Assembly (NCBI GenBank): GCA_026003195.1
Contig: BPGU01000002.1
Span: 62,001-126,000, forward strand
DNA: 64,000 nt
Direction: 5' to 3'
Origin: Armatimonadota bacterium
Lineage (GTDB): Bacteria; Armatimonadota; HRBIN16
Positions 27,906 through 32,653 of the stretch are shown here, one piece after another (the stretch's first letter is position 1; the number at the start of each line of letters is the position of its first letter). Made by a program: the position numbers and the translations under genes. The notes beneath the pieces are model-generated. The model worked only from the letters and a program-made list of their open reading frames with translations. It searched no databases and had not been told where the DNA came from.

Positions 27906-28886
27906 CTATATCCACCCCTTGCGCTTGAAGATATACCACTCGATCACTCCTACCAGCACCATCATTGCCCCCGCGAACGGATAACCCGCTTTCCACTGCA
28001 GTTCGGGCATGTGCGCGAAGTTCATACCGTAGATTCCTGCAATCAGCGCGGCAGACATGAGGATCGTCGAGATAACCGTGAGGATGCGCATCACCTCATT
28101 GAGACGGTTGGATACAACGGACAGGTGGGCATCCAGCACGCCTGCCAGAATATCGCGGTTGAGGTCGGCGAGCTCGGCGATGCGCAGCGTGTGGTCGTAC
28201 ACGTCCTGCAAGTAGGGCACCACTTCGTCGGGAATAAGCTCCACATCTCGGCGCAGCAAGGCGTTCAGGATGTCCCGCAAAGGGGTGATATGCTGGCGCA
28301 GCTCCAGCAGCCTGCGCTTCACCTGCAAGATGTCTGCCACCTGCACCGCGCTGCTGCCGGTGAAGATGGCATCCTCCAGGTCGTCCGCTTTCTCCTCCAG
28401 TGTATCTCCAATGGGGAAATACTCATCCACCACCGCATCCAAAAGCAGATGCAACAGATGCGCGGGGGTCTTCCCTACCCGTTCCGGCTGAACGGTCCAG
28501 CGTTCGAGCCAGTGGTCGATCAGCGGCACGGGTTCAGTATGAACGGTCACCAGAAAGTGACCTCCTAGGAAAAAACCGATTTCGCGGTACACCTCCTCAC
28601 CGTCCTGCTGCAGCACCGCATGAGCCGCCAGAAAGAGCACCCCATCGTAGCGCTGCAAAGCGGGGCGTTCGTAAGGACTGAGCGCATCTTCCACAGCCAG
28701 TGGATGGAATCGAAAACGTTCCGTCAACAGAGGGAACACGGCTTTCGGTTGGCACGCTTCCACATCTACCCACAGCATCCCCTCGCCGCGCGAAAAAGCA
28801 TCCAGTGCACCCGCCTCATCCAGCAGAACGGGCGCACCGGGCGGTAGCCACCATGCAGCGCGAAGGTGATAGAGAGTGTTTTTCAT
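27906..28886 (-). CDS. corA: CorA-type divalent cation channel
   Basis: A 326-residue CorA-family Mg2+/Co2+ transporter. A large N-terminal cytoplasmic domain is followed by a long stalk helix (LNEVMRILTVISTILMSAALIAG). The selectivity motif is YGMNF, then a second membrane helix and the basic tail FKRKGWI. ATG 28886 with AGGG 7 nt upstream is preferred to a GTG at 28907. Its stop is one base from the dppB-like start, so it may lead that operon. Co-transcription with an Opp/Dpp-type importer could hint at metal import, but this is speculative. Confidence 0.9.
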   Translation of the reverse strand: MKNTLYHLRAAWWLPPGAPVLLDEAGALDAFSRGEGMLWVDVEACQPKAVFPLLTERFRFHPLAVEDALSPYERPALQRYDGVLFLAAHAVLQQDGEEVYREIGFFLGGHFLVTVHTEPVPLIDHWLERWTVQPERVGKTPAHLLHLLLDAVVDEYFPIGDTLEEKADDLEDAIFTGSSAVQVADILQVKRRLLELRQHITPLRDILNALLRRDVELIPDEVVPYLQDVYDHTLRIAELADLNRDILAGVLDAHLSVVSNRLNEVMRILTVISTILMSAALIAGIYGMNFAHMPELQWKAGYPFAGAMMVLVGVIEWYIFKRKGWI

Positions 28887-28931
28887 GCGAGTACCCTGCG
28901 AGATCACGCGACGGAACGCCCCGCGTCTGTC

Positions 28932-31889
28932 TTATTCTTTGCGCTTCCGGTGTTTCTTTCCCCCACGCCTGCGCCGTTTCTTGCCGGTCGCACCTGATGT
29001 CGTTTCCTGCACCGCTTCCCCGCTCCGCTCAGGAACAGGTATACCCAGTGTAACGAGCTGTTCGTAGGAGCCGACGGCATAGAGGGCGCTTTGCCCCATG
29101 CGCATGTTGAGACGCAGGTTTCCCGCATCGTCTGCAAGCAGACGTCCCTGTACGAGGTCATACACCATCTGCTTTTGTGGGAACTGCAGGTATACCACGC
29201 CATCGCCCACCGAGTGCACCGCAAGGAACGGCGGAGCGACACGAACCACATCGCTGCTCTGCGACCACACGTGTACGCCTGCAAATCGGCACAAGCCTCG
29301 CAGCAGATCGACGTTCAGCTGGCGTTCGCCAATAAACACGGAACGCCACGTTCCCATGTCCTTGACCGCGATGGAAGGCAAGCCCGTCTGAATGTACTCT
29401 CCCAACACCACAACCTTCTCGTCCAGCACGTAGAAAGAGGGGTTCACCCGTTCCCGAGTGCCTATCTGCTTGTTGCGCAGCCGCTCTGAAATGGGGTGAC
29501 GGTCGTTGCTGATGATCGAACCCGTTTCACTGTTCCACGGTTGCGCTTTGATTGCTATCCCGGCGACGTCACGCGGTCCGTCGGGCGTGTAGCCGTTTTC
29601 ATCGAACAGCGCTACCGCATAGAGCCATACCAGCGTTTTGCCGTCACGCTGGAGCCTCTCCCGAATCACCTCGCGTACTTCGGAGTCTATCTCTATCGGG
29701 TTGAGGAAAAGGTACATTTTGGCGTCGGGGAACGCCTTGCGCACGAGGTCGCTCTGCAGATAGATGCCGTAGTGGATGCCTGCACGCGCCAGCACCTCCT
29801 GTTGCCCGATAACAAGAGGCTCCAGCAGCGCTTTGGGTGACTGGATGCGGGTGAGGCTTCGCTCGTCGACGATGACAGCGACCTCGGGTGTTTCGGGAAG
29901 CCTTTGTCGAATGTGAGCCAGATACAGGGTGGACAGGTTCTCCGCTTGCCGCCAGACCTCGCTGTCGCTGACCCAGCCCTCGCCCCACAGGTCCATCCAC
30001 GAGACGCCAGCGTGATGTAGCAAAGCGGTGGTTGCATTGCGCAGGCGCACCTGCCGGGTGGACTCGGCATCGGAACAGCGAGGGTTATAGTCATCCGGCG
30101 TGTTGTTCTGCGCGGTGTGAGGTTTGGTATCGTCTTCCAGCACGAATAGTTTGCCGTGCAGACGCACCGACGCAACCGGAACCGGCACGCTGCCCGGCTG
30201 AGCGGAGCATCGGTCGCGGTATGATACCGGCGCGCATATCAGGTCAATACTCTGCGCCGACAGCACCTCCGAAAGTGCCAGATGCCCACTGTGAGGTACT
30301 GGAAAATCCAGAACGTAGCCGTACGATACCGCAACCAGACGACGATCCTCGCAGTTCTTCTTCACGGTTCGCGAGAGGGTCACAATACGACGCGCAATGA
30401 TTTCAGAAGCAAAGCACAGGTAGTCCACATACCTCTGTCCTTTACGGCTCTCGTAAAGCACTGTCGCAGGAACAGTATCTCCCCGGTAAGTGGGTATGCT
30501 GGCACTGGTAAAGGTTACTGAACCATCATGCCATGCTGCGCGCAGTCGCACCACGTCGTTTTTGTATCGCCCACGCAGCCATTGCCGGAAAGCCTCCTGC
30601 GCCGCCGGGCTGTAATCGTAGCCTCGCTGATACTCGTAGAACCACTCCCTGCAGTCCAGATGATAACCGAGAATGTAGCGCGACTCCTCGGTCACTTCCA
30701 GCTGACGCACCAGCAGGGTTAAAGCAGCTTCTGCCTCCTGCCAGTATCGCTCGGAGGCAAACGAAGGTTCACCGGTAGAACCATCGGCGTAGGTGGTCAT
30801 CGCCTCAGGATACAGCTTTTGCCAATCCGGCGGCGGGGAGAATACGACCCGAAACATCACGTAACCCTGCGGGTCGTGCTGGCGTACCAGGTGCAGAAGG
30901 CGCAGCGCCTCGTTCACGCTATAGGAAACCATCGGGACCGACACAGGCAGGTCCAGCAACAGCGCGTGCAGGTGCACCCCAGCCGACGCCGCTTGCCGAA
31001 TCTGCTCACACACCCTGCGCTCTGACGCTGCCGAATCGATATTGCCGAAAAAGAAGAGAGGTACGACAGGCTCACCGTCGATAATAATCTCCGGATGCCC
31101 CTGCCGTATCCCCAGGCGCACGCCCTCGCGTTTGCGTCTGCGCAGCTCCGTTGCCTTCTCCTCGGCGACAGCCTCCGCCGATGGCAACTCCTCTGCCTCT
31201 GCCTTTGTCGTGCGTCGTGAGCGTCTTCTACGTCGAGCAGGAGGAGCTGCCACCTCCGTCGGTGCTTCTGGTATACTTTCCGGCTCGGCAACCTCTTCGG
31301 TCGGCAGAGCTGCTTCCAGAGAGGGCTCCCCCTGCTCCACGAGTGATACCGGCACAGGCGGTTCTTCAGCAGGTGTCTCTTCCACAAACTCCTGCGCGGT
31401 GAAGGCGGGCGCCTCTTCGGGAGCGGGTACTGTTTCCTCTGGCGTCTCCTCAACAATCTGTGGGGAAATCTCTGCTGGCGCTTCTTCAGCCGTCACCCGG
31501 CTTTTGGCTCGCTGGCGTGTAGACCTGCGCCGCTTGCGAGTGGCAGGGGTCGTCTCGCTCACAGCCGAGACAGCCTCCTGCGCTTCGCTCACGCTTTCGG
31601 TGGACTGTTCGACCGCCGGTACGACCTCTGCGATTTCGACAGCAGGAACAGATTCCGCGCTCTCCGTGCCCTCCTCAGAAATGGCGGCGGATTGCGCTTC
31701 CGTTTTGGCGGTTTTTGTGGACCGACGACGTGTGCGTCGTTTCGGCGCAGGAGCAGGTTCGTGCGGCGTTCCTTCTTGCTGAGAACCAACCTCACCCTCC
31801 TGCGACGGACTGGCAGCCTCTGCTGTTTCAGGTGATGCAACAAGCGGCTCCCCGCTCTCCGGCGCGGAGCGACGTCGACGTGATGGCAT
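28932..31889 (-). CDS. GH42-like glycosidase-fold protein with disordered and basic ends
   Basis: A 985-residue protein in three parts. Residues 1 to about 250 are low-complexity, Glu/Ala/Pro/Ser-rich with Arg/Lys clusters (KRRTRRRSTKTAKT, RKRRRSTRQRAKS, RRRRRSRRTTK). Residues about 255-950 resemble family 42 beta-galactosidases: DGEPVVPLFFFGN at the barrel start, YILGYHLDCREWFYEY where GH42 has its W-x-I-D-N-E acid/base strand, YSPAAQEAFRQWLRGRY, and the trimerisation-like domain EVAVIVDERSLTRIQSP through IYLQSDLVRKAFPDAKMYLFLN. The C-terminus is GKKRRRRGGKKHRKRKE. There is no signal peptide. The catalytic Asn-Glu pair is Arg-Glu here with one extra residue, so activity is uncertain. The basic tails look nucleic-acid-binding. 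AAAGGAGG lies 12 nt before the ATG. Confidence 0.65.
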   Translation of the reverse strand: MPSRRRRSAPESGEPLVASPETAEAASPSQEGEVGSQQEGTPHEPAPAPKRRTRRRSTKTAKTEAQSAAISEEGTESAESVPAVEIAEVVPAVEQSTESVSEAQEAVSAVSETTPATRKRRRSTRQRAKSRVTAEEAPAEISPQIVEETPEETVPAPEEAPAFTAQEFVEETPAEEPPVPVSLVEQGEPSLEAALPTEEVAEPESIPEAPTEVAAPPARRRRRSRRTTKAEAEELPSAEAVAEEKATELRRRKREGVRLGIRQGHPEIIIDGEPVVPLFFFGNIDSAASERRVCEQIRQAASAGVHLHALLLDLPVSVPMVSYSVNEALRLLHLVRQHDPQGYVMFRVVFSPPPDWQKLYPEAMTTYADGSTGEPSFASERYWQEAEAALTLLVRQLEVTEESRYILGYHLDCREWFYEYQRGYDYSPAAQEAFRQWLRGRYKNDVVRLRAAWHDGSVTFTSASIPTYRGDTVPATVLYESRKGQRYVDYLCFASEIIARRIVTLSRTVKKNCEDRRLVAVSYGYVLDFPVPHSGHLALSEVLSAQSIDLICAPVSYRDRCSAQPGSVPVPVASVRLHGKLFVLEDDTKPHTAQNNTPDDYNPRCSDAESTRQVRLRNATTALLHHAGVSWMDLWGEGWVSDSEVWRQAENLSTLYLAHIRQRLPETPEVAVIVDERSLTRIQSPKALLEPLVIGQQEVLARAGIHYGIYLQSDLVRKAFPDAKMYLFLNPIEIDSEVREVIRERLQRDGKTLVWLYAVALFDENGYTPDGPRDVAGIAIKAQPWNSETGSIISNDRHPISERLRNKQIGTRERVNPSFYVLDEKVVVLGEYIQTGLPSIAVKDMGTWRSVFIGERQLNVDLLRGLCRFAGVHVWSQSSDVVRVAPPFLAVHSVGDGVVYLQFPQKQMVYDLVQGRLLADDAGNLRLNMRMGQSALYAVGSYEQLVTLGIPVPERSGEAVQETTSGATGKKRRRRGGKKHRKRKE

Positions 31890-31918: not shown

Positions 31919-32653
31919 CTAACTGCTTGCCGTGGGGATGCCGACACGCGCCATCTCTTCGTCTGCACGCCGCGCCAGCGACCGGAAAAACTCTCGAAGC
32001 TGGGCAGGCTCCTCCAAGAGCCAGTCGGGCGATTCCGCACGCAGAACTTCCACGGGATGCGCGCCCCAGCCGACGGCTATCACCCGCACGCCAGCTTCAC
32101 GAGCACACTGGATATCGTACACCGTGTCGCCGACAAACACAGATTCCTGCGGACGCGCCTCTAACCTTTGCAGTGCCAGCAGCACCGAGTCGGGCGCGGG
32201 TTTCGGACGAGTCACGTCAGAGGAACTCACCACCGCGTCTACCCATCCGTTGACACCCAGACGCGGAAGAAACATCTCCAGTTCCAGCCTGTTCTTGGAG
32301 GTGACCAGCGCCGTACGCAAACCTGCTCGCTTCGCCTCTTTCAAAGCATCCACCGCCTCGGGAAGAATACGCTCCAGATGCTTGTGCGACTCGTAATAGT
32401 CGATCTCATCCGCTTCCATAGCGCGGTGGTCCGGCGTAAAGTCCACCAGATGGTCGAACAGGCGTACTTGCTTGTGCAGAGGTAGCCCGATCGTTCGACG
32501 CAACTCGTCTCGCGAAATTTGCACTCCCAAATGCTTGCGGAAAGTATGGTCTAAAGCGCGGACGATTAACTCCACGGTGTCGACCAGAGTACCGTCTATA
32601 TCGAACAGCGCGCAACGAAAAGGTGGCTGTGTCGTTGTCAATGCACTCCCCAT
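31919..32653 (-). CDS. HAD-family phosphatase (phosphoglycolate phosphatase-like)
   Basis: A 244-residue haloacid-dehalogenase hydrolase. Motif I is LFDIDGTLVDT (nucleophile and acid Asp), motif II VTSKNR, motif III lysine in RPKPAPDSV, and motif IV GDTVYDIQCA. The helical cap sits between motifs I and II, as in Gph and PpaX. A role in removing phosphoglycolate or another small phosphoester is likely; the substrate is not fixed by sequence. It is divergent from the transketolase genes and followed by the GH42-like gene after 29 nt. Confidence 0.85.
   Translation of the reverse strand: MGSALTTTQPPFRCALFDIDGTLVDTVELIVRALDHTFRKHLGVQISRDELRRTIGLPLHKQVRLFDHLVDFTPDHRAMEADEIDYYESHKHLERILPEAVDALKEAKRAGLRTALVTSKNRLELEMFLPRLGVNGWVDAVVSSSDVTRPKPAPDSVLLALQRLEARPQESVFVGDTVYDIQCAREAGVRVIAVGWGAHPVEVLRAESPDWLLEEPAQLREFFRSLARRADEEMARVGIPTASS

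Follow-up and report, generated by a model that had tools for sequence, protein, structure and literature searches.

A GH42-like protein of Armatimonadota with conserved basic tails, possibly a tethered enzyme

Glycosidases are familiar as enzymes of nutrient breakdown or of the wall, and the question raised by the locus studied here is why a protein with a glycosidase fold should carry long, basic and disordered extensions at both ends. The gene lies on the minus strand at 28932..31889 of the window, by which we mean the whole 64,000-nucleotide stretch of contig BPGU01000002.1 (Armatimonadota bacterium, assembly GCA_026003195.1) that was analysed, and it encodes 985 amino acids plus a stop codon, as judged from the ORF call and from its orthologues. 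We found no description of a tailed GH42-like protein in the literature. Our working hypothesis, which is tentative and plausible rather than probable, is that the product is a GH42-like enzyme of the cytosol, probably still competent in catalysis, that its tails would tether to RNA, to ribosomes or to some other polyanion. If this is true, then sugar chemistry would be linked to RNA or ribosomes by a glycosidase-fold protein that is spread over several Armatimonadota classes.

A GH42-like core between two disordered tails

The window protein has a sole Pfam match, to GH42 (PF02449), which spans residues 351-518 with an E value of 4e-8 and a score of 33.4 bits, above the gathering score of 21; PF02449 also matches 20 of 35 group members at an E value of 0.01. 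A search of NCBIfam with the window protein gave no match, and a sequence search of the PDB gave nothing beyond GH42. The AF2 model, built with 35 orthologues in the alignment, has a core from approximately residue 255 to residue 955 with pLDDT mostly above 90, whereas residues 1-253 and approximately 958-985 have pLDDT below 50. From this model, the GH42 matches in Foldseek and the Pfam match, we delimit the folded core as residues 256-942 (29064..31124, minus strand), which would comprise, with limits taken from predicted secondary structure, a GH42-like barrel (approximately residues 256-665), a trimerization-like α/β domain (approximately 668-870) and a beta domain (approximately 871-942). 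The top PDB matches in Foldseek were GH42 β-galactosidases (E value 1e-25, 12-16% identity, TM by target 0.65-0.72); a β-1,2-glucosyltransferase and GH164 ranked lower. The model and the Foldseek matches thus place in the window protein the barrel, trimerization-like and beta domains of GH42, a three-domain fold over approximately 700 residues that it has in common with BiBga42A (8ibr) and A4-β-Gal (1kwg).

The N-terminal tail (residues 1-255; 31125..31889, minus strand) is rich in Pro, Glu and Ala and carries blocks of Arg and Lys at residues 50-62 (KRRTRRRSTKTAK, 31704..31742), 118-129 (RKRRRSTRQRAK, 31503..31538), 219-229 (RRRRRSRRTTK, 31203..31235) and 250-255 (RRRKRE, 31125..31142), the last at the junction with the core and all on the minus strand; a further basic cluster is found at residues 2-7. 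The C-terminal tail (residues 943-985; 28935..29063, minus strand), in which pLDDT is low from residue 958, contains one basic block at residues 970-984 (KKRRRRGGKKHRKRK, 28938..28982, minus strand). A sequence-only reading of this DNA had proposed a GH42-like barrel and a trimerization-like domain between basic, disordered tails, and Pfam, AF2 and Foldseek together confirm that layout. It had also claimed that the protein lacks a signal peptide; this was borne out, as no hydrophobic stretch could be read in the N-terminus, and the median N-terminal hydrophobicity of the tailed group is low, its members being mostly without a signal peptide, unlike most of the paralogues. Tat export by way of the MPSRRRR motif was rejected because the hydrophobic stretch that should follow the motif is missing.

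We also considered whether the tails might arise from a misplaced translation start. The ATG start has a Shine-Dalgarno sequence 12 nt upstream (AAAGGAGG), and this signal, the open reading frame, the retention of the tails across families and the third-position excess of changes led us to reject such an artefact.

Conservation of the tails in one orthologous group

The relatives of the window protein fall into two sets, one scoring above 400 bits, with approximately one member per genome and with tails, and one scoring below approximately 340 bits and tail-less. We aligned 102 distinct tailed members, of which 92 are complete. Each of the 39 genomes listed for seven families (f1, f7, f12, f13, f22, f24 and f33) has a tailed member, and none of the listed no-hit genomes belongs to these families; the census covers the listed genomes, and eight no-hit genomes fall outside the listing. 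Among the best 80 of 125 matches in a scan of GTDB representatives, the named ones were from Chthonomonadia, Fimbriimonadia and Capsulimonadaceae, all Armatimonadota, and one lay in a MAG labelled as an archaeon, which is probably a binning or naming error. In a tree of 86 rows, made by a quick method without a mixture model and with long branches among the paralogues, all tailed members fall to one side of a branch whose support is 100. The tail-less Armatimonadota paralogues (for example L023, L226 and L227) lie on the other side; over the core that they share with the tailed group they are approximately 30% identical to it, and the EW and E(D/S/A)D motifs are common to both sets, but the paralogues are mostly secreted, with a hydrophobic N-terminus, lack the basic tails and have additional residues before GEWF.

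At least one N-terminal basic block is present in all 92 complete orthologues, with two or more in 81 of them, and the C-terminal block, which reads RRRRRGGRGRG in several families, is present in 89 of the 92. The blocks are far more frequent than amino acid composition would produce: the N-terminal tail of the window protein has 4, as compared with 0.18 on average when the sequence is shuffled with its composition preserved (none of 2000 shuffles as high), and the complete orthologues together have 330 N-terminal blocks against 56 in shuffled sequences and 99 C-terminal blocks against 11. The 5 blocks of the window protein also exceed the two or fewer found in other ORFs of the same genome, a comparison based on 394 ORFs, some possibly spurious, from approximately 10% of the genome. 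The sequence-only reading had named the absence of tails from all orthologues, as local low-complexity drift, as one half of the outcome that would overturn it, the other half being robust β-galactosidase activity; the blocks in every complete orthologue, far above the shuffles, rule out this drift. Alignment and shuffling, together with the disorder that AF2 predicts for the window protein, thus point to conserved disordered regions with basic blocks, and we conclude from the sequence comparisons that the orthologues have kept their tails as a group.

What is conserved in the N-terminal tail is the blocks. In the closest within-genus pair, the core has 257 synonymous and 46 nonsynonymous codon changes, which indicates strong purifying selection, whereas the N-terminal tail has 107 nonsynonymous and 52 synonymous changes, so that its sequence drifts quickly while the blocks stay. 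Conservation is 0.65 at block positions and 0.31 in the linkers, with R and K treated as equal in a scoring that favors blocks somewhat. The length of the N-terminal tail varies freely in the group, from 101 to 437 residues; these lengths are approximate because start codons outside the window genus were picked by rule or by eye.

Other proteins with similar tails were sought by motif. RRRRGG gave 5 matches in the window's own genome, all in implausible frames, as compared with 11 in a backwards control, and of approximately 30 RRRGGRG matches examined in nine relatives, only L171, the tailed gene itself, looked coding. These searches left out AGR codons, and chance matches were many because the genomes are high in GC. 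The RNase E/G of the window's genome, checked as a tail-bearing partner, is without such tails. In the G001 orthologue (L005/L048), the C-terminal basic tail stops two residues short, at a TAG codon in frame (KHRKR*E).

Gene neighborhood and possible partners of the tails

Era, the 30S-assembly GTPase, is nearly universal, and its gene lies directly downstream of the tailed gene in 43 of the 98 orthologues with enough downstream sequence. The neighbors were scored by tblastn, since antisense ORFs are longer than era at some loci, and the G073 locus was confirmed separately. The gap from the tailed gene to era is mostly −3 to +7 nt when based on ORFs; the tblastn-based gaps, with their inexact alignment ends, scatter from −19 to +28. 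The neighbor scores above the NCBIfam equivalog cut-off for Era and has the KH_2 domain. The adjacency was seen in 10 of 10 f12 genomes examined and is limited to a single, Fimbriimonadaceae-like clade. The window's own genome has Era at a site away from the tailed gene (G000:C1:327686), and corA (27906-28907), which lies downstream of the tailed gene there, is not a conserved neighbor.

A conserved neighbor on the other side is a gene for a HAD-family phosphatase (31919..32653, minus strand), approximately 30 nt upstream of the tailed gene on the same strand, whose product is PpaX/phosphoglycolate-phosphatase-like and scores below the equivalog cut-offs. It is upstream in 40 of 94 orthologues, the window included, and 21 loci have both HAD and era. 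The tree, read with this distribution, suggests that the HAD linkage is the older one, being shared by the window genus and Fimbriimonadia, and that the linkage to era has a single origin within a subclade. Because it is probably one phylogenetic event, the 43 occurrences are not independent; the weight of the link is in its persistence while the Era proteins at the linked loci drew apart, retaining 44-65% identity with the probe, and the other neighbors scattered.

Genes for ribosome assembly are common neighbors of era, and many gammaproteobacteria show translational coupling of rnc to era; metabolic genes of unexplained meaning also persist beside era (PMC10582724). The tailed gene is placed as in the rnc-era and ybeY-era operons (PMC10582724), right before era and near or overlapping its start, but the partner is here a GH42-like protein, and in one clade only. 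Era appears to be missing from several families in which the tailed protein is retained; the function of the tailed protein therefore cannot depend on Era.

We favor a nucleic-acid, ribosome or polyanion context because the tails are conserved group-wide and because era abuts the gene in one large clade. The arrangement that we consider most plausible is that a cytosolic clan-A (GH42-like) glycosidase-fold protein is held at RNA, most likely at ribosomes or ribosome precursors, with the Arg/Lys-block tails at both ends as the tether. If the protein is a trimer, as GH42 enzymes are, each particle would present six tails, which might give multivalent, low-specificity binding to polyanions and possibly form condensates, while the core, a putative enzyme, would act on some sugar or glycoside. 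RNA as the partner of the tails, a role at the ribosome, trimerization and catalysis are all steps that we infer. RNase E scaffolds and BR-body proteins join a disordered region with basic blocks to an enzyme core, a layout that the tailed protein resembles by analogy; it has no sequence relation to them, and its own core has a glycosidase fold. Some members of the group come from lineages that bear the names of cultured genera (Chthonomonas and Fimbriimonas), and the tether hypothesis is therefore open to direct testing.

As ligands, DNA, polyphosphate, membranes or anionic polysaccharide would suit the basic tails just as well, and a possible, if somewhat unlikely, alternative is that the tails place a cytosolic glycosidase on such a polyanion (DNA or nucleoid, polyphosphate, an anionic membrane or an acidic polysaccharide used for storage), era being a neighbor through incidental housekeeping co-expression. 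The generic chemistry of the tails, with Arg/Lys blocks in Pro/Glu/Ala-rich linkers, the confinement of the era link to one clade and the conserved pair of Glu residues described below would all agree with this; however, the era gene order has been kept despite the divergence of Era, and the AT-hook core RGRP occurs in just 2 of the 102 tailed members. A more specific form of the RNA tether, which we consider unlikely as a whole, is a phylum-restricted factor of ribosome biogenesis or RNA metabolism, in which a catalytically competent GH42-like enzyme would be tethered to pre-ribosomes or RNA, with Era as operon partner in one clade, and would possibly have as its substrate an RNA or a ribosomal component that is glycosylated, or sense a sugar to tune ribosome assembly.

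Some further observations concern era and its surroundings. An Era match at 1e-40 was found in only 41 of 101 Armatimonadota genomes, and Era appears to be missing from, for example, G029 (a single contig), G042, G021, G034 and G077; in the first three of these, only other GTPases were matched. Each of these five genomes has one KH_2 protein of 268-291 residues, which is probably ribosomal protein S3, as compared with two in G000 and G056. According to a 2023 review, loss of Era in bacteria is confined to groups with extremely reduced genomes. At 12 Fimbriimonadia-type loci (L038, L070, L071, L122, L132, L134, L140, L141, L143, L149, L150 and L152), the second gene downstream, after era, belongs to a family with a weak match to the FtsZ-binding C-terminal domain of ZipA, the Pfam search having been run on the L038 member only. 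The tail-less secreted paralogue L226 (G075:C341) lies approximately 250 bp from era, and the two genes converge; this is probably a coincidence because the tree places L226 away from the tailed group.

The candidate active site

Glu415 of the window protein (30645..30647, minus strand; motif LDCREWF, LERGEWF in relatives) aligns by phmmer with the acid/base Glu of GH42 and is thus the candidate acid/base, matching the Glu of the β-galactosidases at that position. The candidate nucleophile is Glu585 (30135..30137, minus strand; motif LFVLEDDTKPH), at the end of a predicted strand (residues 581-586), where the nucleophile of a GH42 β-galactosidase would be expected; E318 of BiBga42A (PMC10688820) served as the comparison for this modeled position. 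Each is kept in 100 of the 102 tailed members, and both are present in 99. The Asn that precedes the acid/base Glu in GH42 is Arg in the window protein (LDCRE415W) and is replaced in nearly all of the tailed group, so that the Asn-Glu pair of GH42 is not found. Because this pair is absent and enzymatic activity is only predicted, the protein is GH42-like and is not assigned to GH42 proper; it differs from the GH42 β-galactosidases also in its 12-16% identity and in its long basic disordered tails. The tail-less paralogues likewise lack the Asn, and its loss therefore predates the tails or is independent of them. The sequence-only reading, which had called the Asn-Glu pair altered, was right about the Asn but not about the Glu, and the degenerate active site that it implied fits one genus only. 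Since both candidate catalytic residues are kept in nearly all species, the core is probably still an enzyme.

The three exceptions, L038 (E585L), L041 (E415N and E585L) and L077 (E415I), all belong to genus g12 of Fimbriimonadia, a single clade in which the tails and the era linkage are still present. Because this genus loses catalytic residues and keeps the tails and the core, part of the function of the tailed protein would be independent of catalysis. This raises the alternative of a pseudo-enzyme, in which a GH42-like fold without catalysis would serve as an RNA chaperone or as a scaffold for ribosome assembly, and for which the three patterns of Glu loss and the general absence of the acid/base Asn might be cited. 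We find this doubtful for the group as a whole, given that 99 of 102 members have both Glu residues and that the Asn, missing also from the tail-less paralogues, is no mark of lost catalysis here. The earlier suggestion that the fold was reused in a nucleic-acid or polyanion context is accordingly supported in part: the conserved tails and the era link in one clade favor the context, but reuse instead of an enzyme role fits only genus g12; elsewhere an enzyme plus a tether fits better. Lastly, an ordinary intracellular glycosidase with ligand-free solubility or entropic-bristle segments would suit the free drift of the N-terminal tail in sequence and length and a HAD sugar-phosphatase-like neighbor, but it is improbable because Arg and Lys are clustered far above shuffles, the C-terminal block is found in 97% of the complete orthologues, such tails are very rare among the ORFs sampled from the same proteome, and neutral spacers could do without basic blocks at both ends.

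For the tethered enzyme that we favor, genus g12 would be a natural case in which the enzymatic role is separated from the scaffold role, and L038, L041 and L077 form a natural pseudo-enzyme series within one genus.
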